This document shows positions 6,352-35,114 of a stretch of 43,016 bases of DNA, one piece after another. The stretch comes from Candidatus Omnitrophota bacterium. Its GTDB lineage: Bacteria; Omnitrophota; Gorgyraeia; Gygaellales; Profunditerraquicolaceae. The position numbers and the translations under genes were made by a program. The notes under the pieces were generated by a model. The model was not told the DNA's origin, ran no database searches, and saw only the letters and a program-made list of their open reading frames with translations. Numbering within the stretch: position 1 is the stretch's first letter; each line of letters begins with the position of its first letter. The stretch is taken from assembly GCA_022013085.1 (NCBI GenBank), contig JAKLQX010000016.1:1-43016 (forward strand), given 5' to 3'.

Positions 6352-7179
6352 ATGAATCATCGACAGAGGCTTAAAATCGGTATCGTGGGTTGTGGGGCAA
6401 TTGGCAGCTCTTTAGCAAAGGAGATAGTCAAAGGTATGCGTAAGCATGCTTGCCTGGTAGCTCTTTTTGATATAAGGCCGGAAAAAGCTCAGTTGCTTTC
6501 TAGAAAGCTAACTCGGGATACAAAATTGTGTGTAGGCAATTTGAAAGCTTTAATTAAACGGTCGGATTTGGTAATTGAGGCATCTTCAGCAAAAGCATCA
6601 TGGGAAATCGTATGCCAATCTTTGTCCGGTGGATGTAAAGTTATGGTTATGAGCGTAGGTGGAATGGTCGGCCACTTAGATGAACTTTATGTTTTATCTA
6701 GAAAAAACAATGCGATGGTTTATTTTCCTAGCGGAGCTATTTCAGGGATCGATGCCATAAAAGCGGCAAATATAGGGAAAATACAAAAGGTGGTTTTGAC
6801 TACGCGCAAACACCCTGATGCATTTAGCGGTGTAGAATACGTGTCCAAGAACTTTAAGCTTAGTGGTTTAAAACACGATAAGCTGTTGTTTAAGGGCAGC
6901 GCGGCGATGGCAGTAAAATATTTCCCGCAAAATATTAATGTTGCGGCAGTTTTAGGTTTAGCCGGGATAGGCATGCGTAAAACTCTGGTGCGTATAATCG
7001 CTAGCCCCAAGGTAAAGAAGAATATTCATGAAATTGAAATTGAATCGAAGGCAGCTAAAATCTTCACGCGTACTGAGAATATTTTGCATCCACAGAATCC
7101 CAAGACTTCTTTTTTAGCGGTGCTTTCGGCAATTGCGACATTAAATGAGATTTTACAGCCGATAAAAATCGGCACTTAA
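6352..7179 (+). CDS. nadX: Aspartate dehydrogenase-like protein
   Basis: GIVGCGAIGSSLA Rossmann motif, IEASSAKA, VMSVGGM, FPSGAISGIDAIKAA, NINVAAVLGLAGIG. ORF track start is 6322; ATG 6352 is preferred. Confidence 0.8.
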   Translation: MNHRQRLKIGIVGCGAIGSSLAKEIVKGMRKHACLVALFDIRPEKAQLLSRKLTRDTKLCVGNLKALIKRSDLVIEASSAKASWEIVCQSLSGGCKVMVMSVGGMVGHLDELYVLSRKNNAMVYFPSGAISGIDAIKAANIGKIQKVVLTTRKHPDAFSGVEYVSKNFKLSGLKHDKLLFKGSAAMAVKYFPQNINVAAVLGLAGIGMRKTLVRIIASPKVKKNIHEIEIESKAAKIFTRTENILHPQNPKTSFLAVLSAIATLNEILQPIKIGT

Positions 7180-7212
7180 TTAAAAAACATACGAAAGGGG
7201 GTGAATCAAAAA

Positions 7213-7452
7213 ATGGCAGATAAAGTACTGAAGGTGGGAATAAAGAGGGAAAAAGGTTATCTCTATTATATTGACAAGCAGGGTGACGTATCTTGCGCCA
7301 AAATGGCAAGAGGTGCGAAAAAGGGAGGTAGCCCCAAGAAGGTAGAGAAATGCGGTATCAAGAGAAAAGTCGGATACCTTTATTTTCTCGATAAGAAAGG
7401 CGATGTCTCTTGCGCTAAGATGAAAAGAGGCGGAAAGAAGAAAAAGAAATAA
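7213..7452 (+). CDS. Small basic protein with a tandemly duplicated motif
   Basis: Two copies of GIKRx-GYLYxxDKxGDVSCAKMxRG. SD GAAAGGGGG lies upstream. The ORF track begins at GTG 7201. Confidence 0.7.
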   Translation: MADKVLKVGIKREKGYLYYIDKQGDVSCAKMARGAKKGGSPKKVEKCGIKRKVGYLYFLDKKGDVSCAKMKRGGKKKKK

Positions 7453-7476
7453 TTTTCCGGCTTCTGAAAAAGTATA

Positions 7477-7518
7477 GCCCCTGTATAAATAGATTTATTT
7501 TTCTAAATTTACAGGGGC
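7477..7518 (+). terminator. Candidate intrinsic terminator hairpin
   Basis: GCCCCTGTA ... TACAGGGGC followed shortly by a T-run (GTACTTTTT). Confidence 0.5.
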
Positions 7519-7543
7519 GTACTTTTTATGCTATAATCAGCCT

Positions 7544-8305
7544 ATGATTGAGAACAAAAAAGTTGTTGTAGTAATGCCTGCCTTTAATGCCGCCCGGACA
7601 TTGGAAAACGTTTATCAGGAGATTCCTAAAGGGATTGTTGACGAGGTATTGTTAGTTGATGACCAAAGCCAAGACGATACTGTGGCAATCGCCAAGAAAT
7701 TAGGGTTAAGGATATTTTTTCATGAGAGAAACTCTGGTTATGGAGCAAACCAAAAAATTTGCTACCGGGAAGCTTTGAAAATAGGGGCAGATATTGTTAT
7801 CATGTTGCATCCGGATTATCAATACCCGCCTAAATTAATAAATGCTTTTGCTGCGCTTATTTCTAGTAATATGTTTGACATTGTCTTAGGTTCGCGTATC
7901 TTAGGCGGTAGAGCATTATCTGGAGGTATGCCTCTTTATAAGTATGTATCAAATCGCGTACTTACCTTTATAGAAAATATTCTTCTTCGCCAGAAGTTAT
8001 CTGAGTATCATACGGGTTATCGGGCTTTTTCCCGCAAGGCGCTGCTCGAGCTGCCTTTATTAGAAAATTCAGATGATTTTATTTTTGATAACCAGATTAT
8101 TGCCCAAGGTGTTTATTTTGGTTATAGATTTGGAGAGATTACCGCGCCATCAGTTTATACTCATGAATCTTCAAGCATCACATTTAAACGTAGTATTATT
8201 TATGGTTTAGGGGTTATCCTTACTGCGATTAAATTTAAATTGCAAGTTTTACGTTTAGGAAACTTTAAAATATTTAACAAAGATGGCAAGAAAATTGTTA
8301 TTTAA
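7544..8305 (+). CDS. Family 2 glycosyltransferase (DPM1/undecaprenyl-phosphate sugar transferase-like)
   Basis: [50 protein letters not shown]. Confidence 0.9.
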
Positions 8306-8348
8306 TCCTTTCTTTTTTAAATAATGCTCATAAACAACTACTATTAAA

Positions 8349-11147
8349 ATGAAAAATGAGTTTATAGTTATTCGTGGTGCCAGGGAGCATAATCTTAAGA
8401 ATATCAACCTGGATTTACCGCGCAACAAACTGATTGTTATAACCGGTTTATCAGGATCCGGAAAATCCAGCCTTGCCTTTGATACGATTTATGCAGAAGG
8501 CCAACGCAGGTATGTTGAGAGCCTTTCCAGTTATGCTCGGCAGTTTCTTGAGCAGCTACAGAAACCAGATGTGGATTTTATCTCTGGTTTATCCCCAGCG
8601 ATTGCCATCCAACAACGTTCGGCAGGAGGCAATCCCCGCTCAACTGTTGCTACACAAACGGAGATATATGATTATCTAAGGCTATTATTTGCCAGGATAG
8701 GCAAGGTGCACTGTTATAAATGCGGCCTGTTGATTCAAAGTCAAAGTGCGCAGGAGATAGTTGAATCAATTATGAATTTTCAAGCGAATAATGATGTGCA
8801 GATTCTTGCTGGTTTAATCCAAGGGAAAAAAGGACAACATAAAGATATTTTTTCGCAGATTCAGAAATCCGGATTTGTGCGTGCCAGGGTAGACGGTAAA
8901 ATTTATGAATTACCCGCAAAAATAAAATTAGCTAGATATAAACTCCATAATATAGAAGTAGTGGTTGATCGCTTGCATGTTCAGCCGGATGTTTTAAAGC
9001 GGCTTACGGATTCTATTGAAACTGCTCTTAAAGTAGGCAAGGGCACGGTTATTATTGCTAAAACAGGCGCATCCCGGGACTTAATCTTTAGTGAACAATA
9101 TGCCTGCGCTAATTGCCAAATAAGCTACGCAGAGATTAATCCACGAAATTTTTCTTTTAATTCCCCTTATGGGGCATGTCCTGAATGTAATGGCTTAGGA
9201 ATTAAGCTTGAATTTGATCCGGATTTAATTATTCCAGATAAAAATAAGAGCATTAATGCCGGAGCCCTCCAACCGTGGAAGCGTGGCGGTAGAGGCTATA
9301 TCCTTTATTATCGTTGGTTGATACGGGAGTTAAGCCATCGCTTAAAGTTTTCCCTGGATGAGCCTTTTAAGAAATTACCCAAGTTTGCGCAGAAGGCAAT
9401 TCTTTATGGCACAGATGAGATAATCGGTAGTAAACCATTTGAGGGGGTTATCCATAATTTAGAAAGGCTATTTAATCAAACAGACAGCGATTATCTGAAA
9501 GAAGAAATTAGCAGGTTCATGTCCAGCCTCCCTTGCCCGGCATGTTTTGGCGCCAGGCTTAAGCCGGAAAGTTTATCAATAAGGATTAATCAAAAGAATA
9601 TTCGGGAGATCACCTGTATGTCTATAAAAGAGGCAATGAATTTTTTTTCTTGCCTAAAATTAACAGAAAAAGAAAAATTAGTCAGTTATCAGGCATTAAA
9701 AGAAATAACTCAAAAATTGAAATTTTGCGTTGATGTTGGCTTGGACTATTTAACTTTGGACCGTAAAAGTGCAACTTTATCCGGTGGAGAGGCGCAGAGA
9801 ATACGCTTAGCTACTCAGGTGGGTTCTGGGCTGGTAGGGGTTTTATATGTTTTGGATGAGCCGAGCATTGGTTTGCATCAACGGGACAATGAAAAACTAC
9901 TCTCTACTTTAAAGGCACTGCGGGATTTAGGCAATACCCTGGTAGTTGTTGAGCATGACCAAGCTACTATTTTAAGCGCGGATCATATTGTGGATTTAGG
10001 CCCCGGGGCAGGCAGGCATGGAGGTAAGGTTATTTTTTCGGGTAATAAAGAGGAGCTTTTAAAAAGTGAAGATTCCTTAACCGCAAAATATATCCGTAAG
10101 GAGCTTTCGATTCAGCCGCCTGTAAACAGACGCACCTGGCGGAATAAGAAATATATTGAGATAAAAGGGGTTTGCGAACATAACCTTAAAAATATTAATT
10201 TGCGTTTTCCTTTAGGCACGTTTATTTGTGTAACCGGAGTATCAGGATCTGGTAAATCTACTTTAATTAGTGATATACTTTATCCAGCCTTAGCTCAGAG
10301 GATATATCGATCTAAAGTTAAACCCGGGGCATTTAAGAGTATAAGCGGGACAGAACAAATTGACCAGGTAATTGTCGTTGATCAGCAGCCAATCGGCAGA
10401 ACTCCACGTTCAAACCCGGCAACTTATACCGGAGTATTTGCTCATATAAGAGATTTATTCGCCCAGCTTCCAGAAGCGCGTCAACGAGGCTATAAACCGG
10501 GCAGATTTTCATTTAATGTTAAAGGCGGCCGCTGTGAGTCTTGCGGAGGCGATGGGATAAAGAAGATTGAAATGCATTTTTTACCTGATGTATATGTAAA
10601 ATGCGAGCTGTGCAAGGGGTTAAGGTTTAATAACGCGACTTTAGAGGTAAAATATAAAGGCAAATCTATAGCAGATGTTTTAGAGATGACGGCTGAGGAG
10701 GCCTCGGGGTTGTTTAGTAATATCCCGAAAATAAAAAATACCTTTGAATATTTAAATGACGTGGGGTTAGGCTATATTCAATTGGGCCAAAGCGCTACTA
10801 CTCTTTCCGGAGGAGAGGCGCAAAGGATTAAGCTTTCTTCGGAATTATGTAAACGCTCAACCGGAAAAACTCTTTATCTTCTTGATGAGCCTACTACCGG
10901 TTTGCATTTTGCCGACGTAGCTAAGTTATTATCTGTGTTAGGAAAATTAGTTGAGCGTCATAATACTGTTGTAGTAGTTGAACATAATTTAGAGGTAATT
11001 AAATGCGCCGATTTTATTATTGACTTGGGGCCTGAGGGCGGGGATAAGGGTGGAGAGGTCGTCGCTTCCTGTAGCCCGGAAGAGTTGATAAAAATAGACA
11101 AATCTTATACTGCTAAGTTTCTTAGAGAGGTTTTAATAAAAAAATGA
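8349..11147 (+). CDS. uvrA: Excinuclease ABC subunit A
   Basis: Two ABC ATPase domains ([24 protein letters not shown]), zinc-finger CxxC pairs, [12 protein letters not shown]. Confidence 0.98.
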
Positions 11148-11148
11148 A

Positions 11149-11221
11149 CCCCGCACCTTCTAAATATTCAGCTATTAAAGTCGTAAGGTTTAAAGAATTG
11201 AATAAAAAAGAAGGTGCGGGG
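11149..11221. repeat. Palindromic element family P1, copy A
   Basis: Perfect 13-bp inverted arms CCCCGCACCTTCT ... AGAAGGTGCGGGG, with an inner ATTCAG/TTGAAT pair. Lies between the uvrA stop and the next start. Confidence 0.85.
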
Positions 11222-13692
11222 TGAAGATAAAAATTGTCGGTGTATTTATTTTGATATCATTTTTTATTTCTATGGCTATAGCTTATGATGATCCTAAGGA
11301 AGCAGAACTGCTTTTTATGGCTAAGAAAGCCTACGAGGACGGTTTTTATGAGGTTACTTTGGGGATGCTAGAAAGGTTCCAAAAAGGTTTTCCGGATTCT
11401 GAAAAAATAAACGAAGCGCGGCTACTAAAAGGGCAAAGTTATTTTCACCAGGGCCGTTACATGGAGACATTAAATACGCTTGAAGCTTTATTGGTTGATC
11501 CCGAAGCCGCCAGTCTTAAAGATGCCATTTATTTCTGGATGGCAGAGGTGCATTTTAAAGGCAATAATTTTGAAAAAGCTGTTGTTTTTTATCAGAAATT
11601 AATCAATGATTTTCCGCAGTCGTCTTATGTGCCGGCAGCATATTATTCATTAGGATGGTCATTTTCTCAAATGGGGAAATACGATCAAGCTTTACAAAAC
11701 TTAAAAAGCTTGCGGGAGAAGTTTCCTAATGAGCCACAAAGCAAAGACGCTGCCTTTAAATTGATTGAGTGTTTATATAACCTTAAAAATTATTCTGAAT
11801 TAGCAAGTAAGATTAAATTTGTGCTTAAGCTTTATGCTTTTGATACATTACGCTTGCCCTATTTATATTTTTACCTGGCGGAATCTGAATATTATCTGGG
11901 TAATCTTAATGAGGCAGCTAAGAATTATTTTAAATCAGCGCAAGCTTTTAAGGATGAAAAGGCCCAGGCTTTGGCAAAATTAGGTTTAAGCTGGTCTTAT
12001 CTTAAGCTCAAAAAATATGAGGAAGCTGAAGAGATTTTTGCTGATATCAGGCAAAGCAGCCTGGATAAGAAAAACCTGGATATCCTTATATTGGGCCAAG
12101 CAGCGTTAATGTCACAGTCTAACCGGATTTACGAAGCAAAAAAGCTCTATCAGCAACTTATTGACGTTAGCAACGATCCCTTGATACGCCTTCAGGGCTA
12201 TATAGGTAAAGCCGATGCGTTTTATAATTTAGCTGAGTATGCCCAAGCGGTTAAAGTATATGAAGAGGGCCTGGCGGATATAGCCAAAACGAATAATCAA
12301 GCCAATGGGACAAATGAACTGATTGATAAGTTACGTTACAATTTGGGCCTAGCTTATATAAAACAAGGGGCAGTTAAATCCGGGATAGCTGTATTTAAAG
12401 ATATCGCTGAGGAAAGCGTTGATTCGGTTGTAAAGATTGGGGCGCTTTGCCGAATAGGTGATACTTATCAGGATGCCGGCGAATACTTGAAAGCAGAAGA
12501 GGTTTACGCAAAGATTTTGAAACAATTCCCTGATTCATCTTTCGCGGATTATACGTTATATCAAATCGGGCTCTCGCAACTAAAGAGGCTGGATTACATA
12601 TCTGCGATTGCTTCATTTAAGCTCTTGATAAAGAATTATCCACAATCAAAATTTCTAGAGGATACAATTTATTCTTTAGGGGTTTCCTATTTTTATAAAC
12701 AAGATTATGGTTTAAGTTGCGAAATTTTAGCTAAGTTTAAAAATGAGTTTAAGGGTAGCCGATTGTCTGGGCAGGCCATTTTTACGTTGGGGCTAGCCTT
12801 TCTTAATTTGGGAAAAATTGATGAAGCGTTCAATATTTTTAATGATATCCTCAAGCAGTATCCTCAAGACACTGAATTAATGCAGAAGGCGGAATATGAG
12901 ATTGCAGATTGTTATTATAAACTGGGCCAGGAAAAAGAAGCAGTAAGGCGGTTTAAGTTCTTGCGTGCTAAATACCCCGATTCGAAGCTTATTCCGGAAA
13001 TTATGTGGTGGCTGGGCAAATATTATTACCGTTTGAATGATTTAAACCTAGCGCGCAGGTATTTTAGCTCTCTGGCAAATGACTTTCCGAGTAATAGTTT
13101 AGCTGGGGATGCATTATATGCTTTAGGTTTAGTTTTTAGGGATGAGTTTAAGCTTGGGCAGGCAGTTGATAGCTTTAAAATGGCGATTAAGTTTACAGGC
13201 GGAGAGTCAAAGGCGGAAGCTGCTTTAGCTATAGCTGATATTTATTTCCATCAGGAAAGATTTGAAGAGGCACTTAGTGAGTACAATCAGATTCTTAAAA
13301 CATACCCCAATCTAGGCTTTTTGGTTTTTCCCGGAATAGCTAGATGTTATTACAAACTGCTGGATTATGAACAAGCGAAATTATTTTATCAAAAAGCTTT
13401 AAAGTTGATTGATATTAAGGACGCAAGCGACATTCAATTTAGTTTAGCTGAGGTGTATGAGGCTAAGAATGAACTGGATGCTGCAATTACAATGTATCTT
13501 AAATTAGCGGATACTTATAATGATAATACGCAGTTATCAATTCGCGCGCTTTTACGCGCTGCAAAGATCTACGAAGACAAGGATGATTTTAAGAGCGCTT
13601 TAGGTATATACGAAAAAATCACGCAGAATAAGACCGAAGAATCAAAATTTGCTCAGGAGCGGATTGAGTGGATCAAGGCGAGTATCAAATAA
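11221..13692 (+). CDS. Secreted TPR-repeat protein (YbgF/BamD-like repeats)
   Basis: N-terminal signal segment and many TPR units (e.g. YSLGWSFSQMGKYDQALQNLKSLREKFP). GTG start. Confidence 0.85.
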   Translation: MKIKIVGVFILISFFISMAIAYDDPKEAELLFMAKKAYEDGFYEVTLGMLERFQKGFPDSEKINEARLLKGQSYFHQGRYMETLNTLEALLVDPEAASLKDAIYFWMAEVHFKGNNFEKAVVFYQKLINDFPQSSYVPAAYYSLGWSFSQMGKYDQALQNLKSLREKFPNEPQSKDAAFKLIECLYNLKNYSELASKIKFVLKLYAFDTLRLPYLYFYLAESEYYLGNLNEAAKNYFKSAQAFKDEKAQALAKLGLSWSYLKLKKYEEAEEIFADIRQSSLDKKNLDILILGQAALMSQSNRIYEAKKLYQQLIDVSNDPLIRLQGYIGKADAFYNLAEYAQAVKVYEEGLADIAKTNNQANGTNELIDKLRYNLGLAYIKQGAVKSGIAVFKDIAEESVDSVVKIGALCRIGDTYQDAGEYLKAEEVYAKILKQFPDSSFADYTLYQIGLSQLKRLDYISAIASFKLLIKNYPQSKFLEDTIYSLGVSYFYKQDYGLSCEILAKFKNEFKGSRLSGQAIFTLGLAFLNLGKIDEAFNIFNDILKQYPQDTELMQKAEYEIADCYYKLGQEKEAVRRFKFLRAKYPDSKLIPEIMWWLGKYYYRLNDLNLARRYFSSLANDFPSNSLAGDALYALGLVFRDEFKLGQAVDSFKMAIKFTGGESKAEAALAIADIYFHQERFEEALSEYNQILKTYPNLGFLVFPGIARCYYKLLDYEQAKLFYQKALKLIDIKDASDIQFSLAEVYEAKNELDAAITMYLKLADTYNDNTQLSIRALLRAAKIYEDKDDFKSALGIYEKITQNKTEESKFAQERIEWIKASIK

Positions 13693-13784
13693 AGTAGTTG
13701 ACTTATTTTGGTTTATTTATAAAATACATGCATAGCCTACCAGCCGGTAGAGATAAAGGAAGGAACACCCCGTGCTTAAAAGGT

Positions 13785-13860
13785 ACCCCGCGCTTATATG
13801 AATTGCGCGGGTGTTCGCCAGGTGGCGAAAATTGCGCGGGTGTGCCCTTATGGGCAAGGA
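13785..13860 (+). repeat. GC-rich hairpin leader family P2, copy 1
   Basis: ACCCCGCGCTTATATGAATTGCGCGGGTGTTCGCCAGGTGGCGAAAATTGCGCGGGTGTGCCCTTATGGGCAAGGA. A second copy is at 32131-32180. Confidence 0.75.
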
Positions 13861-13866
13861 GAGAAA

Positions 13867-14073
13867 ATGATAATTGAAATCGGGATCGTTGCAGGTGAAA
13901 TTTGGCATTACTTGGATCAGCACGGAGAGGTTGGTTTTTCTAACCTAGTTAAGGGGATTGAGCACACTCCTGATAATGTGTTGTTGAGTTTAGGTTGGCT
14001 TGCCCGTGAAGGCCATGTAATTTTAGTCAAAATTAATAATGGTTACCAGATTTCTTTAAGGAAAGATGCCTGA
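13867..14073 (+). CDS. Small winged-helix DNA-binding-like protein
   Basis: MIIEIGIVAGEIWHYLDQHGEVGFSNLVKGIEHTPDNVLLSLGWLAREGHVILVKINNGYQISL resembles a wHTH fold. Start refined from 13798 to ATG 13867 with SD AAGGAGAG. Confidence 0.65.
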   Translation: MIIEIGIVAGEIWHYLDQHGEVGFSNLVKGIEHTPDNVLLSLGWLAREGHVILVKINNGYQISLRKDA

Positions 14074-14443
14074 TAGCAATAGAAAAGGAGTGCTTCTTCT
14101 TATTGTTATAGGGACTATTCTTGTGGTCGTAACACTGAGTACTGTTATGCTTAGAATTATGCTTAGCCAATCACGTTTAACCCACCATCAAGTAAGTAGG
14201 ATTCAAGCCCAGTATGCTGCTAAAGCTGGAGTTATTTATGCCTTGGAAAAGCTACGCAGAAATGATGATGCATGCTGGAGTAGTGGTTCCTATACCAGGA
14301 TTATGCGGAAGTCTGGCGCAGCCGCATGTGTTGTTATTGAACCAAACCTGCCTAATTCAGTTTCGCAAGTTGATATTACTGTAGGTGCTCTTGTTTCTGG
14401 CTCGCGTAAAATAAGCGCCAAAGCTACCTATACCTATCTTTAA
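14066..14443 (+). CDS. PilX/GspK-like pilus-associated membrane protein
   Basis: GVLLLIVIGTILVVVTLSTVMLRIMLSQSRLTHHQVSRIQAQYAAKAGVIYALEKL: N-terminal TM segment followed by a helical region. Confidence 0.55.
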   Translation: MPDSNRKGVLLLIVIGTILVVVTLSTVMLRIMLSQSRLTHHQVSRIQAQYAAKAGVIYALEKLRRNDDACWSSGSYTRIMRKSGAAACVVIEPNLPNSVSQVDITVGALVSGSRKISAKATYTYL

Positions 14444-14578
14444 TTGAACCCACAATTCATCGCGTAAATCTATTATAATCTAAGTAAGTCTATAATAATC
14501 GTCCTGTTAACATCTATATTTTATGCTCGGAAAACTAACATTCTAAGTAAGTCCAGGTAAGTTTATATAAAAAAACAC

Positions 14579-14607
14579 TTGACAAGATATGTGTATTATG
14601 TTTTAAT
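14579..14607 (+). promoter_or_regulatory. Candidate sigma70-type promoter of the pilus operon
   Basis: TTGACA, 17 nt spacer, TTTAAT, just upstream of the HTH gene at 14647. Confidence 0.5.
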
Positions 14608-14646
14608 TAAGCCTATAGTAACTTATAGCTAAAGGAAGTAAAACTT

Positions 14647-14838
14647 ATGTCAAGGCTTATAGATATTGATGAGTTAGCAGAATACCTAAAATTAAAGAAG
14701 CAGACTATATATAATTGGCTTAATCAAGGCAAGATTTCTGGAATGAAGGTAGGGGGAGTTTGGAGGTTCGATCGCCGCGATATTGATACTTGGTTGAGGA
14801 GTAAAAAACGGACTTCTACTTCAGGAGAACAGTTATGA
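14647..14838 (+). CDS. HTH_17/excisionase-type DNA-binding protein
   Basis: LIDIDELAEYLKLKKQTIYNWLNQGKISGMKVGGVWRFDRRDIDTWL. Confidence 0.88.
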   Translation: MSRLIDIDELAEYLKLKKQTIYNWLNQGKISGMKVGGVWRFDRRDIDTWLRSKKRTSTSGEQL

Positions 14839-16394
14839 ATTCTCTAGGAATATATTTTGGGACCAATTCAATTGGCTTGGCAGAGGGAAATAATAAGAGG
14901 CTGGTGAATAGCGTAATTATCTCCCAGGCGAGTATATTTTCCGGTGATTTTGAGGAGAAGGTTCCCACGGACGTAAAAATTGTTGCGCTGATTAAGGATG
15001 CATTGCGTACCAATCATATGAATGTCGACCATGGGAGTATTTGTATTTCCGGACAGGATCTTATAATCCGCACTTTTGAAATTCCCAGGTTGCCGAGTAA
15101 TGAGCTGCAAAATGCAATTAATTTTGAAGCCAAGAAGTACATTCCTTTTAAACTGGAGGATTTAGTTTATAATTTTCAAGTTGAGCCAAATAAGAAAAAT
15201 AGGCTAAATACCATATTATTTGTTGGTATGAAGAAAGAGGTCCTGGAAAAATATGTTTCTATATCCAGGCAGTTAAATATTAAGATTAACGATGTTGAGT
15301 ATTCTGCTTTTAGCCTTTTGCGTTTTTTAAAGTTATGCGGAGCAAAAGACAGCGGAGTTATTGCCAGCTTTTGTTTTGACCTAGATAATGAGGATGAAAT
15401 AAATTTTGTGGTTTCTGAAAACGGATTCCCATTTTTTAGCCGGGATATAATACTTGCTTCTGCTATAAACGATTTGGATGGTTCTGTTGTTAATGATCGA
15501 GTAAAAAAGTATGATAAGTTAAAGAGCGAAATACGCGTTTTTCAGGATTATTACCGCCGTAAGTTTCCAGATAAGGGAATTAAAACCCTTTATGTACTTT
15601 CTGGCCAGGATATACGCGAGGACCTGAGAGATTTTTTTACTAGTTGTGGTATTTCAGCAAAATTTGTTGATACCAGTAAGGTTTTAGGTAAAGGCGTAAC
15701 TTATTCTTCAATTCTTGCCAAAAGCTTCGGGGCAGTTCTTTTTAGGGACATGCCTTTAAAAGTAAAGATCAATCTTTTTAACACACGGCTAAAGGCAGCT
15801 AGTGCTATAGGTGAAAAGGATATTTTTGCCTTTTTGGAAGGCATAAAGATAGATTTTAAAGTTATATTCCTGGGTATTTTCATATTCGCAGCTACTTTTG
15901 GTTATGGTATATACAGAACGCTACCAGTGCGTGAAGAATTAAACTCTATGAAAAATAATAGGTTGAAACTAGCCTCGGTTTCCGCAGGAGAAGATTTTAC
16001 GGTTTTAGTTGCCCGGGAAAAAAATCTTAAAAAGAAGCTGAATAATTTAGACAGTTTAATTAAAGACCAGCTTTATGCCACTTACTTTTTAGATATTATA
16101 CCAAAGGTTTTGCCGGAAGGCGCCTGGCTTACTAAGTTTATTTCTACGCGCAAAGAAGATGGCCGGCCTGAAGTTATTCTTGAGGGGGAGGCTTATTTAG
16201 GTGATAGTGATAAAGAATTTGAAGTAGTAAGTAAATTTTTATCCAATCTTAAGAGCAATCAGTTTTTTTCCAAGAACTTTAAAGAAATAACTATTACTTC
16301 TGTTGATCGTAGGGTAATCGGCGATGAGAGTGTGGCGATTTTTAGTATTGCTTGTAGAAATTATCCGGAGATAAAGCAAGATGGTAGCAATTGA
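14835..16394 (+). CDS. pilM: PilM-like actin-fold protein with a C-terminal PilN-like region
   Basis: GIYFGTNSIGLAE...INFEAKKYIPFKLEDLVYNFQV is PilM-like. A TM segment at ~aa 340-360 and a PilN-like periplasmic part follow. Confidence 0.78.
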   Translation: MNSLGIYFGTNSIGLAEGNNKRLVNSVIISQASIFSGDFEEKVPTDVKIVALIKDALRTNHMNVDHGSICISGQDLIIRTFEIPRLPSNELQNAINFEAKKYIPFKLEDLVYNFQVEPNKKNRLNTILFVGMKKEVLEKYVSISRQLNIKINDVEYSAFSLLRFLKLCGAKDSGVIASFCFDLDNEDEINFVVSENGFPFFSRDIILASAINDLDGSVVNDRVKKYDKLKSEIRVFQDYYRRKFPDKGIKTLYVLSGQDIREDLRDFFTSCGISAKFVDTSKVLGKGVTYSSILAKSFGAVLFRDMPLKVKINLFNTRLKAASAIGEKDIFAFLEGIKIDFKVIFLGIFIFAATFGYGIYRTLPVREELNSMKNNRLKLASVSAGEDFTVLVAREKNLKKKLNNLDSLIKDQLYATYFLDIIPKVLPEGAWLTKFISTRKEDGRPEVILEGEAYLGDSDKEFEVVSKFLSNLKSNQFFSKNFKEITITSVDRRVIGDESVAIFSIACRNYPEIKQDGSN

Positions 16395-26059: not shown

Positions 26060-26419
26060 ATGAATTTAAATTGGATAAAATGCGGTGGTAAGCAATGGTG
26101 TCGATTATTATATGTAAATTTGCTACACCATCATTTTAACGGACTTGAAGGAGTTTATATTATTTGGCATGGTCAGCCGGATCCTGCGGTTGTTTATGTG
26201 GGGCAAGGTAACATCAGAGAAAGATTAACACAGCATAAACAAGATCCTGATATCTTAGCTTATAAAGATCAGGAGTTATTGGTTACATGGGCAAAAGTAG
26301 ATTCTGCACACAGGGATGGCATAGAAAGATTTCTTGCTGAACATTGGAAGCCTAAAGCAGGGCAGAATTGTCCATTAGCTGATCCAATATCAGTCAATTC
26401 ACCCTGGGATAAAGCATAA
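26060..26419 (+). CDS. GIY-YIG-like nuclease-fold protein
   Basis: GVYIIWHGQPDPAVVYVGQGNIRERLTQHKQ...ERFLAEHWKP. Confidence 0.7.
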   Translation: MNLNWIKCGGKQWCRLLYVNLLHHHFNGLEGVYIIWHGQPDPAVVYVGQGNIRERLTQHKQDPDILAYKDQELLVTWAKVDSAHRDGIERFLAEHWKPKAGQNCPLADPISVNSPWDKA

Positions 26420-27417: not shown

Positions 27418-27426
27418 TACCGATTG

Positions 27427-27464
27427 CATCATCTGGGTGCTTAGGCCACTAAAGGAGAAATAAG
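27427..27464 (+). repeat. 38-nt start-proximal leader repeat, copy 1
   Basis: CATCATCTGGGTGCTTAGGCCACTAAAGGAGAAATAAG|ATG. Confidence 0.8.
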
Positions 27465-27914
27465 ATGAAGAGATATATTTTATGCTTATGCATCATCCTC
27501 TCAACTTACTCTACTGCTTTTGCTTCGTATGTAGTAAAGGGCAAAGGAATAACAAGTGTTATGTATATCGGTGGCAAAGCAGAAACAAGTAAATGTAATG
27601 ACGAGGTAGTATATGTTGTTGATTTAGAAAATAAGATAGTTACGAGGACAGGGGTATTTAACGCTGATATTAAAGAAGGTCCAGTAGCAGGATTACAAAC
27701 AGATAATACAGTATACCAGATTGTCTATGATGTTAAGGAAGATGCTATATTAAGAGATAAGGAGCGTAGCAAGCCCCAGCATATTATTAAAGCTATAGGT
27801 AAATGCGGATTTTTAGAAGGCTATGAGACCATAGTTATAGGAGATGATTTCATTTCAACCTCTAAATCGGCTTTTGATTATTTTATGCTCTATTATTATA
27901 AGAGAATACAATAA
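27465..27914 (+). CDS. Small secreted protein of unknown function
   Basis: MKRYILCLCIILSTYSTAFASYV signal peptide. Confidence 0.7.
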   Translation: MKRYILCLCIILSTYSTAFASYVVKGKGITSVMYIGGKAETSKCNDEVVYVVDLENKIVTRTGVFNADIKEGPVAGLQTDNTVYQIVYDVKEDAILRDKERSKPQHIIKAIGKCGFLEGYETIVIGDDFISTSKSAFDYFMLYYYKRIQ

Positions 27915-27924
27915 CAACTATTTT

Positions 27925-27962
27925 CATCATCTGGGCGGTTAGAACATTGAGGGAGAGACAAT
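27925..27962 (+). repeat. 38-nt start-proximal leader repeat, copy 2
   Basis: CATCATCTGGGCGGTTAGAACATTGAGGGAGAGACAAT|ATG. Confidence 0.8.
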
Positions 27963-28469
27963 ATGGAGAAATATATAATAGAAATAAACTGGGAAGGTTT
28001 TTTGAATATCGAAGAAGTTATAAGAGGCAAGAATAGTGCGGGGAGGGAGCCTGATTGGTTGGGAAGGGATTATGGGGTATATCAAATATATGGACATCAC
28101 ATTTTATGCGGTGATGATACATTACTTTACGTTGGACAAGTAGCCAAAGAAACGTTCTCTGAAAGATTCCGAGAGCATAAAGTTAATTTATTGAAAGACG
28201 ATAATTTAGACAAAATCAAAATTTATCTTGGTAGACTACAGAACACTCCAAAGTATAACCCAAAAGATGAGTGGGAAATGTATTATAGAGATGAGGATAT
28301 CGTAGAGTCCATTCTAATATATAAATATTTACCTCCTTATAATGGTAGCCGAAAAGGCGATTATCCCAATCTTTACCAATATACAGAAATTAAATTAGCA
28401 CATAAAGGAGATAAGGGGAGATTAGAGTTAGAAGATATCGCCCCCAGTGATTATTTAAAAGGAGAATAG
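27963..28469 (+). CDS. GIY-YIG-like nuclease-fold protein
   Basis: YGVYQIYGHHILCGDDTLLYVGQVAKETFSERFREHK...EDIVESILIYKYLPPYNGS. Confidence 0.7.
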   Translation: MEKYIIEINWEGFLNIEEVIRGKNSAGREPDWLGRDYGVYQIYGHHILCGDDTLLYVGQVAKETFSERFREHKVNLLKDDNLDKIKIYLGRLQNTPKYNPKDEWEMYYRDEDIVESILIYKYLPPYNGSRKGDYPNLYQYTEIKLAHKGDKGRLELEDIAPSDYLKGE

Positions 28470-28470
28470 A

Positions 28471-28662
28471 ATGAAAGAGTATAAAGTATTAACTCAGAGG
28501 GATAAGTTTTGGGGAGGACAATTTGACCCTGCAAAATTGGAAGCTGCTATGAATTCATTTGCTGCCGAAGGGTGGACTGTTATTTCAGTGGCTACAGCAA
28601 GCGTTATTGCGCTTGGCGGCGAGAGAGATGAAATAATAATAATTTTGGAGAGAGAAAAATAA
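28471..28662 (+). CDS. DUF4177-like protein
   Basis: EYKVLTQRDKFWGGQFDPAKLEAAMNSFAAEGWTVISVATASV...DEIIIILERE. Confidence 0.75.
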   Translation: MKEYKVLTQRDKFWGGQFDPAKLEAAMNSFAAEGWTVISVATASVIALGGERDEIIIILEREK

Positions 28663-28713
28663 TGGAAAAGACACTTTATTTAGAGGATGCTACGGTCTAT
28701 AGGATTCTAAGAA

Positions 28714-28932
28714 ATGAATAAAAAACAATTAATAATTGCTTGGGGAATGGGGATTGCAATAATTGCAGTAATAATAAAAGGCGGTTTTGCTCATTTGGGA
28801 GTTGGTAATTTTTATTTATTGACTGCAGGATGGCATTTCGTTAACGAACCAGAAATAAGAATAATTTCAAGTTTAATTATATTCGCAGTTTTATTAATCT
28901 ATACTTTAAGGGATAAGAAGAAAGGATTTTAG
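28714..28932 (+). CDS. Small membrane protein
   Basis: Two hydrophobic segments; 72 aa. Confidence 0.5.
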   Translation: MNKKQLIIAWGMGIAIIAVIIKGGFAHLGVGNFYLLTAGWHFVNEPEIRIISSLIIFAVLLIYTLRDKKKGF

Positions 28933-28933
28933 A

Positions 28934-29371
28934 TTGTTTAATCTATTGATTATACTCATTCTTATAATTGTAGTTGTAATCCTGGTAATTAGAAAAGTTT
29001 TAAAAAAAGACATCATCATAGAAGGAATTGTTATAGGTGTTGTAACAGGTATTTGTTTATCTTTTTCCATAGATGCTAATTATAGGGCGAGTTTAATAGG
29101 GCCTATAATTCAAATGGCAAAATTCATTAAGGTTTCGGTAAGGTACGTTAGTGTTGATTATAAGAATATTCAATTAGAAAAAGTTGGAGAAGGAGTTTTT
29201 AATGTAGATGCAACCAATATTGCTTCGGGAGTAGTAGTTAAATTTCGGGATTCTAATTTGTCCGATTTGCCTCCGGATTTAAGGTATGATGTTGCCACAA
29301 GTGATACAGTACAAGCGGTATTAACACCGAATAGCTTTAAGCTTGAAGAACTCGGTGGTAAGCCACAATAA
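28934..29371 (+). CDS. Membrane-anchored protein of unknown function
   Basis: Two N-terminal TM segments and a soluble C-terminal part; 145 aa. Confidence 0.5.
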   Translation: MFNLLIILILIIVVVILVIRKVLKKDIIIEGIVIGVVTGICLSFSIDANYRASLIGPIIQMAKFIKVSVRYVSVDYKNIQLEKVGEGVFNVDATNIASGVVVKFRDSNLSDLPPDLRYDVATSDTVQAVLTPNSFKLEELGGKPQ

Positions 29372-29390
29372 AGAGAATGACATGTGCAAT

Positions 29391-30674
29391 CTATATAAGT
29401 TTATCATCTGGACGGTAAGGACGCTGAGGGAGGGGGAAAATGATTAAGAAAATTATAACAACACTAGAAAGACATCCCGTATACTTAAGCTTAATAACCG
29501 GTACCGTCAGTGGCGTCGTAGGTGGTATCATAAGCGGAATTATAGTCGGTTTTATACTAAATAGATTTATAAAATAAAAAACAATTAAGGGATCGGTCAA
29601 TACATTGTTACCCCCTTGAGTTAAGGAATCGGCGTATTTAACAAGCATAGCATCTAAGTCAACAGGTGGAATCATTAAGAGCCGTTTATCTAAATCAGGT
29701 TTTTTCTCTTGGATTAATTGCCAAGGCGATTTATTCTCTTTGTAAGTATTAGGCCTCTCAAGATTGAAGAATAATTGATAGGTTGAAGCTTTACTCATAA
29801 ATTCCGCTCTGTCGCAAAATGTTTCTATTTCATAGAACTCTGTTTCCATAAGGCCGTGTATTGTTTCAACATCAGCCTGCATACGGTGAGCTCCCGGGAA
29901 GATGGTGCCATGGATTTGCCCAGGCAGGGATTCTATAGCACGAGTATATGCTGATGGTTCTTTGGCATTCCAGGAGCCGCAGTATTCTACGCCGTTATCA
30001 GTCTGACGGTATGCGCCGGAATCAGGCAGCGCTTTAGAGGCAATTAGGTATTGATTAATATATTCGGCGAACAGCGTGGCATTAATTAACGATAGTTCAT
30101 CGGAGAAGCCGAGGAACAAAGCTCCGCAGCTGACTTCTCTAAGAGTATATTGCACAGCAGGCAGGCGTGATCGTTTCATCTGTGGCCAGTATTCGGGGAT
30201 ATCGGTTAAATCTTTGGTGTCTTCGCAGGCTTGATGGAAGAAGGGGAATTGTTTTTTGACTTCGCGCAAGTTGCGTTTGGTGATGTATTTTTTTCTTCGC
30301 TTACCTCGCGCGACACCAGCTTCTTTCCATATCTTGCGGATGGTTTTTTCGGCTTGGGGAAGTTGTTCAAGGCATTTAACTTGTTTAGCGCCAAGGTTAC
30401 GATATTTATTCTTTTTGAGCCCGACGATATGGTCTTTGATGCTTTGGGCAGTGGCGCGCGGCGAGTAATGTGGTTTACGAGATAAATCAAGTAATCCCTC
30501 ATAGCCGTGTTCTTTGAATCGTTTTAGCCATTTGCGTACTACTGGCGGCGATGTATTAAATATTCGAGCCGCAGGCTTAATGCCGTGTTTAAGCGCGTAT
30601 TGAATCATTTGATATCGGTGTGCTCGTTTGTCTTTACAATTCCGCATGTTTTGGTAATATGATAATGGGCACAT
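29391..30674 (-). CDS. DDE (rve-type) transposase with N-terminal HTH; ORF reads beyond the IS end
   Basis: HTH: ALKHGIKPAARIFNTSPPVVRKWLKRFKEHGYEGLLDLSRKPH. DDE-like: DTKDLTD, QTDNGVEY, ADVETIHGLMETEF. Confidence 0.88.
   Translation of the reverse strand: MCPLSYYQNMRNCKDKRAHRYQMIQYALKHGIKPAARIFNTSPPVVRKWLKRFKEHGYEGLLDLSRKPHYSPRATAQSIKDHIVGLKKNKYRNLGAKQVKCLEQLPQAEKTIRKIWKEAGVARGKRRKKYITKRNLREVKKQFPFFHQACEDTKDLTDIPEYWPQMKRSRLPAVQYTLREVSCGALFLGFSDELSLINATLFAEYINQYLIASKALPDSGAYRQTDNGVEYCGSWNAKEPSAYTRAIESLPGQIHGTIFPGAHRMQADVETIHGLMETEFYEIETFCDRAEFMSKASTYQLFFNLERPNTYKENKSPWQLIQEKKPDLDKRLLMIPPVDLDAMLVKYADSLTQGGNNVLTDPLIVFYFINLFSIKPTIIPLMIPPTTPLTVPVIKLKYTGCLSSVVIIFLIIFPLPQRPYRPDDKLI
29402..29439 (+). 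repeat. 38-nt start-proximal leader repeat, copy 3
   Basis: TATCATCTGGACGGTAAGGACGCTGAGGGAGGGGGAAA|ATG. Confidence 0.8.
29440..29577 (+). CDS. 45-aa predicted single-TM small protein (below the ORF-track cutoff)
   Basis: MIKKIITTLERHPVYLSLITGTVSGVVGGIISGIIVGFILNRFIK*, preceded by a strong SD and leader copy 3. Confidence 0.6.
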   Translation: MIKKIITTLERHPVYLSLITGTVSGVVGGIISGIIVGFILNRFIK

Positions 30675-31092
30675 ACGAGAGTCCTCCTTTTGCGAGAAGC
30701 GGCTCTTAATTTACATCAGTATGTGCCTCTTTTCATTATATTTCTACTGAATAAGATTTAAGGTATCTCGGGTCTTCATAAGATTCTTGTTCTTTGAACC
30801 AGGCTTTTAAATTCCGCGCTCTCCAAAAAGAAGAGAAGCGGGTATTAAGAATATTTGAAGGCTCGTAGGAGCCGGTGTAATTATTATCTGGTTTAAGATC
30901 GCCGTTCCTAGGGTTCTCCAGAGGTTCTTTTTTAGAGACTTTTTGCCGTAAAGGCGTTTTCGGTTTAGGTGATGTTGGTTTCGGGCCTAAATCAAATTCA
31001 TCCAAAGCCGCCTTTAATTTCTTAAAAATTTCTCTACTTATACAAAGAACTTTTATTAATTTTCCCTCACAGGGGAGGGGGTAACGATGTAT
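29600..31092 (-). mobile_element. Insertion sequence with imperfect terminal inverted repeats (boundaries approximate)
   Basis: ATACATTGTTACCCCCT (29600-29616) pairs with AGGGGGTAACGATGTAT (31076-31092; one mismatch in 17). They flank a DDE transposase ORF. Confidence 0.75.
30736..31005 (-). CDS. 89-aa charged ORF inside the IS
   Basis: MDEFDLGPKPTSPKPKTPLRQKVSKKEP...; upstream in-frame stop 15 nt before the ATG; lies between the IRs. Confidence 0.45.
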   Translation of the reverse strand: MDEFDLGPKPTSPKPKTPLRQKVSKKEPLENPRNGDLKPDNNYTGSYEPSNILNTRFSSFWRARNLKAWFKEQESYEDPRYLKSYSVEI

Positions 31093-32122: not shown

Positions 32123-32130
32123 GAAGTAGC

Positions 32131-32180
32131 ACCCCGCGCTTATAAGGAATTGCGCGGGTGTGCCCTTGTGGGCTAGGAGA
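32131..32180 (+). repeat. GC-rich hairpin leader family P2, copy 2
   Basis: ACCCCGCGCTTATAAGGAATTGCGCGGGTGTGCCCTTGTGGGCTAGGAGA. Confidence 0.75.
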
Positions 32181-32187
32181 AGTAGTT

Positions 32188-32298
32188 ATGCCTTGTGGAA
32201 AAAAAAGAAAAAGACAAAAGATCAAGACTCATAAACGCAAGAAAATGCGTCGACGTCTTCGTCATTTGAAGAAAAGAGCCTGGGGTGGTAAGGGTTAA
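32188..32298 (+). CDS. AURKAIP1/COX24-domain-like very basic small protein (possible ribosome-associated)
   Basis: MPCGKKRKRQKIKTHKRKKMRRRLRHLKKRAWGGKG*, SD AGGAGA upstream. Missed by the ORF track because it is 36 aa. Confidence 0.7.
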   Translation: MPCGKKRKRQKIKTHKRKKMRRRLRHLKKRAWGGKG

Positions 32299-35083: not shown

Positions 35084-35114
35084 TGTAGGGGAGGTTTAAA
35101 CCTCCCCTACACTA
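35081..35114. repeat. 34-bp perfect palindrome overlapping the transketolase stop
   Basis: TAGTGTAGGGGAGGTTTAAACCTCCCCTACACTA. Same 26-bp core as 1424-1457. Confidence 0.9.

Follow-up and report, generated by a model that had tools for sequence, protein, structure and literature searches.

The 38-nt sequence that recurs in front of three unrelated open reading frames (ORFs) in the window, which is the whole 43,016-nt stretch of Candidatus Omnitrophota DNA that was analysed, is best read as vestigial coding sequence. We put a probability of about 0.8 on the reading that it derives from genes of one small membrane protein family, here called A, whose bodies were lost independently while the 3' ends were retained as ribosome-binding sites (RBS). 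What looked like a puzzling repeated leader thereby becomes an instance of gene decay, with the remaining tail probably acting as the start signal of the neighbouring gene; the case spans several genera, with an intermediate inside one genome, and brings out an undescribed family of small membrane proteins prone to precede unrelated genes. The case is instructive as gene decay, a process already known in kind, and not as a new regulatory element; it also cautions that short repeats upstream of unrelated ORFs may turn out to be neither cassettes nor regulatory elements.

Three similar sequences in front of three unrelated ORFs

Ungapped 38-mers beginning at positions 27427, 27925 and 29402 are identical in 22 of 38 columns in all three copies, including ATCATCTGG, and end directly 5' of the ATG codons at 27465, 27963 and 29440, as the earlier note had described. 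When every ATG ORF in the window with 40 or more aa (101 in total) was compared by its upstream 38 nt, with no prior choice of copies, the three leader pairs were the top three of 5,050 upstream pairs (28, 28 and 24 matches; the next pair had 21). A degenerate 20-mer made from the copies gave 3 matches in the window against 0.04 expected, a circular figure because the pattern was derived from the same data. GGAG stands exactly 7 nt 5' of the ATG in 3 of 3 cases. As for copies elsewhere, which the earlier note had proposed to seek, relatives contain further copies before diverse ORFs, and no fourth close copy was found in the genome itself (1.39 Mb, 91% complete). The features of the region, with scores from the C-terminal profile of A described below, are as follows.

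27425..27463, + strand: tail 1, putative 3' remnant of an A gene (...C I I W V L R P L K E K, then a stop); stop codon TAA at 27461-27463; GGAG 7 nt before the ATG at 27465; profile E 0.06, rank 3 of 2372
27465..27914, + strand: 149-aa secreted protein with a signal-like N-terminus
27923..27957, + strand: tail 2 (F I I W A V R T L R E R), A stop codon lost; GGAG 7 nt before the ATG at 27963; profile E 1.4e-6, rank 1
27963..28469, + strand: 168-aa ORF without a Pfam match
28684..28713, + strand: possible fourth, degenerate tail (GTC TAT AGG ATT CTA AGA AAT GAA TAA region)
29400..29434, + strand: tail 3 (F I I W T V R T L R E G); GGAG 7 nt before the ATG at 29440; profile E 1.4e-4, rank 2
29440..29577, + strand: 45-aa membrane-type ORF downstream of tail 3

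The name 'GIY-YIG-like' that had been given to the 168-aa ORF found no Pfam support; a weak GIY-YIG match (E 0.11) was obtained for a 119-aa ORF at 26060. The possible fourth tail, noticed by inspection and missed by the C-terminal profile of A on the six-frame peptides of the window, precedes the p72 ORF (MNKKQLI...), and ORF starts resembling that of p72 lie behind an intact A gene in genome G152 and behind a tail in G292. Small ORFs at window positions 28714-28932, at L093 10207-10434 and in L129, L131 and L132 have the near-identical start ATGAATAAAAAACAATTAATAATTGCTTGG (MNKKQLIIAW) and diverge strongly after it, so that their conserved gene start is the mirror image of the conserved gene end of A. 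Just 3' of the 45-aa ORF, at 29600-31092, lies an IS481-like insertion sequence with 17-nt terminal inverted repeats that are 94% complementary.

Family A and the ancestry of the repeats

A DNA-consensus search of the family gave matches in three other genomes, and in two of these the match lay within the final part of an intact gene encoding a membrane protein of 94-99 aa. Read in the frame of A, the window copies give CIIWVLRPLKEK followed by a stop codon, FIIWAVRTLRER and FIIWTVRTLREG. The consensus of A, IAREGLILL...GYPxYLLIRFIIWAxKTLKEK and a stop, describes a membrane protein of ~70-105 aa with the N-terminal start KKIIAREGLILLG, a variable middle and the end GYPxYLLIRFIIWAxKTLKEK before the stop codon. 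Intact A genes are present in many Omnitrophota. A degenerate DNA pattern matched five Omnitrophota records plus, by chance, one in Ehrlichia, with 0 matches in viral contigs, and the named A records are all from Candidatus Omnitrophota bar one chance match. Comparison with Pfam (14 members) and NCBIfam (3 members) gave no match above the curated cut-off, and a literature search returned no report on family A or on retained 3' gene ends; A is an undescribed small membrane protein family of Candidatus Omnitrophota. A 157-aa protein near hisG in G091 also has an A-like C-terminus, but its gene is intact.

For a non-circular test of ancestry, a C-terminal profile of 11 columns was built from 25 intact A proteins of other genomes, with no window data. 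This profile ranked the three leaders 1, 2 and 3 among 2,372 six-frame peptides of the window (E 1.4e-6, 1.4e-4 and 0.06), and the copies match the A C-terminal pattern FI-x-W-x-x-K/R-x-L-K/R-E in the correct frame. Scores of single tails can be weak when they stand alone (tail 1, E 0.06; the first tail of G060, E 5.6; the G125 tail, E 0.13). On the genome itself the full-length A profile gave only two matches, both weak, one of them tail 3 (29379-29432, corresponding to profile positions 66-83 of 84; E 0.21), whose likeness runs slightly further 5' (29388-29402, Leu-Tyr-Lys-Phe vs Leu-Ile-Arg-Phe). No intact A gene, as judged by the N-terminal IAREGLILL part, was found in this genome by pattern and profile searches, and the window copies are therefore regarded as remnants and not as family members. 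Variation is highest at third codon positions both in intact A genes (0.28 vs 0.14 and 0.12) and in the tails (0.28 vs 0.21 and 0.14). On this comparison of sequences, the leaders almost certainly represent the last 11 codons, with the ribosome-binding site, of three different A members.

These data also bear on whether the copies form a dedicated cis-regulatory or translational leader, a structured RNA or a micro-ORF attenuator common to the three genes. Equal spacing to the ATG and the GGAG common to all copies would suit such an element, and tail 3 has an in-frame ATG at 29382 that could open a micro-ORF of 21 codons (MCNLYKFIIWTVRTLREGEND). Read upstream in frame, however, tails 1 and 2 reach a stop before any ATG, the copies fold no better than shuffled sequences and belong to no Rfam family (a scan of the island gave only sub-threshold snoRNA chance matches), and homology to the C-terminus of a protein family, with variation of the coding type, makes this explanation very improbable. 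The shared translational or cis-regulatory leader envisaged in the earlier note therefore survives in part: the copies are probably translation leaders, because GGAG lies 7 nt before each ATG, but they are 3' coding ends of one protein family and not a dedicated leader.

Two other repeated elements were seen in the window. A second recurrent leader, at 13780-13868 and 32129-32190, consists of CCGCGC...GCGCGG and GCCC...GGGC hairpins followed by AGGAG and ATG; it folds better than shuffled sequences (z -2.7 and -1.9), and a similar sequence precedes an ATG in G094 (L011 ~540-600). The perfect 26-nt palindrome GTAGGGGAGGTTTAAACCTCCCCTAC occurs twice, at 1428-1453 and 35085-35110, 33.7 kb apart.

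The mutual likeness of the window tails is no higher than their likeness to A genes of other genera. Over 33 nt, tail 1 shares 28 positions with the G036 tail, 27 with the A genes of G334 and G034, and 25 with tail 2; tail 2 shares 27-29 with several A ends elsewhere vs 26 with tail 3; and tail 3 is about equally close to tail 2 (26) and to the others (25). Together with the third-position variation, these identities indicate that the differences between the three copies most likely arose while they were still coding sequence, and not after recent copying of a single leader. That one gene with its leader was duplicated in tandem, and that the ORFs behind the copies then diverged, would explain why tails 1 and 2 are also alike in the first downstream codons (ATGAAGAGATATAT and ATGGAGAAATATAT), but it is hardly credible: both tails are nearer to A ends from other genera than to the neighbouring copy (28 and 27 against 25 for tail 1; 29 against 26 for tail 2), and the downstream ORFs each have relatives of their own elsewhere. 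Relatives of the 149-aa protein occur in six further Omnitrophota genomes (identity up to 51%) and the 168-aa ORF has a 49% identical relative in G288, in each case with no tail upstream; for this reason joint transfer of tail and ORF was discarded as an explanation. The island and the pilin cluster are absent from the region 5' of hisG in the genus, and no empty site was available for comparison.

Headless tails and the proposed loss of A bodies

Intact A genes show how their ends could come to serve a neighbour. An ATG ORF begins between -14 and +80 nt of the A stop in 21 of 30 A-type ORFs, with an ATGA overlap in 7 of those 21, and the proteins encoded downstream are of many kinds. In members with a terminal LKEK, the codons can read AAGGAGAAA, which is a ribosome-binding site for the next gene. 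GGAG was commoner in tails (7/10) than in intact A genes (11/31, scored by eye), a non-significant difference (p 0.075). Translationally coupled unidirectional gene pairs with short overlaps (-4/-1 nt), as treated in PMC10666635, resemble this arrangement in that intact A often ends with ATGA or a few nt before the next ATG, and in that GGAG falls within the last codons of some members. The window differs from such pairs in that the upstream gene is gone and its last codons alone remain, so that at tails 1 and 2 one would not expect classical termination-reinitiation.

Headless tails similar to those of the window were found in at least six other genomes, and A-less tails stand directly before an ATG in G036, G060, G412, G292 (= JAGVOB010000106.1) and G125. 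G060 has two, separated by ~490 nt; one precedes a lipoprotein, the other a 477-aa ORF. Weaker matches in G101 and G027 look like eroded tails and were left uncounted. In JAFGFD010000065.1 an in-frame stop lies just 5' of the A-type end, and this A-type gene may be a fresh pseudogene. The step from intact A to tail is shown inside one genome by G231, which carries two paralogs of a small cysteine-rich downstream ORF with 93 nt in common at 91% identity: the first overlaps an intact double A gene, and in front of the second stand CGCTTCATTATCTGGGCG and, after a gap of 13 nt relative to A, AGGAGAAATAATGG, the tail there keeping CGCTTCATTATCTGGGCG and AGGAGAAATA before the ATG with AGGAG retained. 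Across the order, matches to the A-start pattern comprised 15 intact genes, 2 truncated ones (5'-only fragments) and 1 unrelated sequence, and at least 5 of 15 matches to the A-end pattern were tails; 3' pieces thus appear to be kept more often than 5' pieces, although the numbers are small.

The history that we propose would begin with A as the first gene of short pairs, A-X, in which the start signal of X sat inside the 3' end of A, the L-K/R-E-K codons reading AAGGAGAAA or AGGGAGA. The A body would then have been deleted or replaced while the last 35-45 nt stayed, presumably because X needed them for translation, and the tail would supply the initiation region of the next ORF. The downstream genes are unrelated because A sits 5' of unrelated genes. 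That each tail now serves as the RBS region of its downstream ORF is predicted with reasonable confidence; we lean, somewhat less firmly, towards selection for the RBS, and not chance or a preferred joint, as the cause of its retention. As in vestigial genes of operons generally, the 5' part is missing and the frame has decayed (tail 2 has lost its stop codon), but here, across several genera, the same short 3' piece has repeatedly been kept directly in front of an ATG.

The 5' limits of the tails and the cassette alternative

Some features fit poorly with decay and selection for an RBS. The 5' limits of ten tails cluster, partly as judged by inspection, within ~12 nt around the Leu-Ile-Arg-Phe codons. 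This is tighter than random deletion with detection bias would give. Detection sets a minimum tail length only, so that the clustering needs either strong deletion pressure down to the ribosome footprint or a preferred joint. Moreover, ATCATCTGG, which lies outside the Shine-Dalgarno (SD) region, is kept as well as the SD part or better, and in G231 it was kept where 13 nt nearer the SD were lost. It is conceivable, though we consider it improbable, that in Omnitrophota unrelated genes are repeatedly attached, or A bodies repeatedly removed, at a preferred joint formed by the 3' end of A, around CGCTTCATCATCTGGGCG; if true, this would be an unrecognised cassette-building process acting on the end of a coding sequence.

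Cassette assembly, in which that end would be a preferred recombination joint and the island would have grown by stacked units of tail and ORF in the manner of an integron, is about equally unlikely, and is retained at this level because of the clustered limits and the conservation of ATCATCTGG. Tandem tails with unrelated ORFs between them (three in the window, two in G060), limits within ~12 nt, and the FIIWA block kept in G231 where the following 13 nt were lost would all agree with it. The cassette modules suggested in the earlier note are nevertheless not supported, on several counts. The tails do not fold (z -0.13, -0.12 and +1.49), unlike attC-type sites; inspection of the ORFs beside the window copies recognised no recombinase, the sole mobile-element gene recognised there being that of the IS481-like transposase; the copies are not recent mutual duplicates, their divergence from one another matching that from A genes in other genera; and two of the downstream ORFs have tail-free homologs elsewhere. 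Accretion also predicts intact A genes 5' of the tails, and none was found in the genome itself or in the stretches of G060 and G036 that were examined. Integron cassette arrays are similar in having a short repeat between unrelated ORFs on the same strand and differ in that here attC-like folding is absent, no integrase was recognised next to the copies and the repeat descends from coding sequence; identity with attC was dropped on the grounds of folding and coding origin.

Repeats among unrelated small genes were also observed in L043 (G036 contig 70), at 6700-14450 and 14549-15133. They comprise seven copies of the terminator-like repeat GGGCTGGACTTAACCGTTCAGCCCTTTTT and six of a longer repeat containing GAATAAACTAGGACG...AACTTCGC, and the array, which ends at a recombinase of the Phage_integrase family on the opposite strand, is possibly cassette-like.
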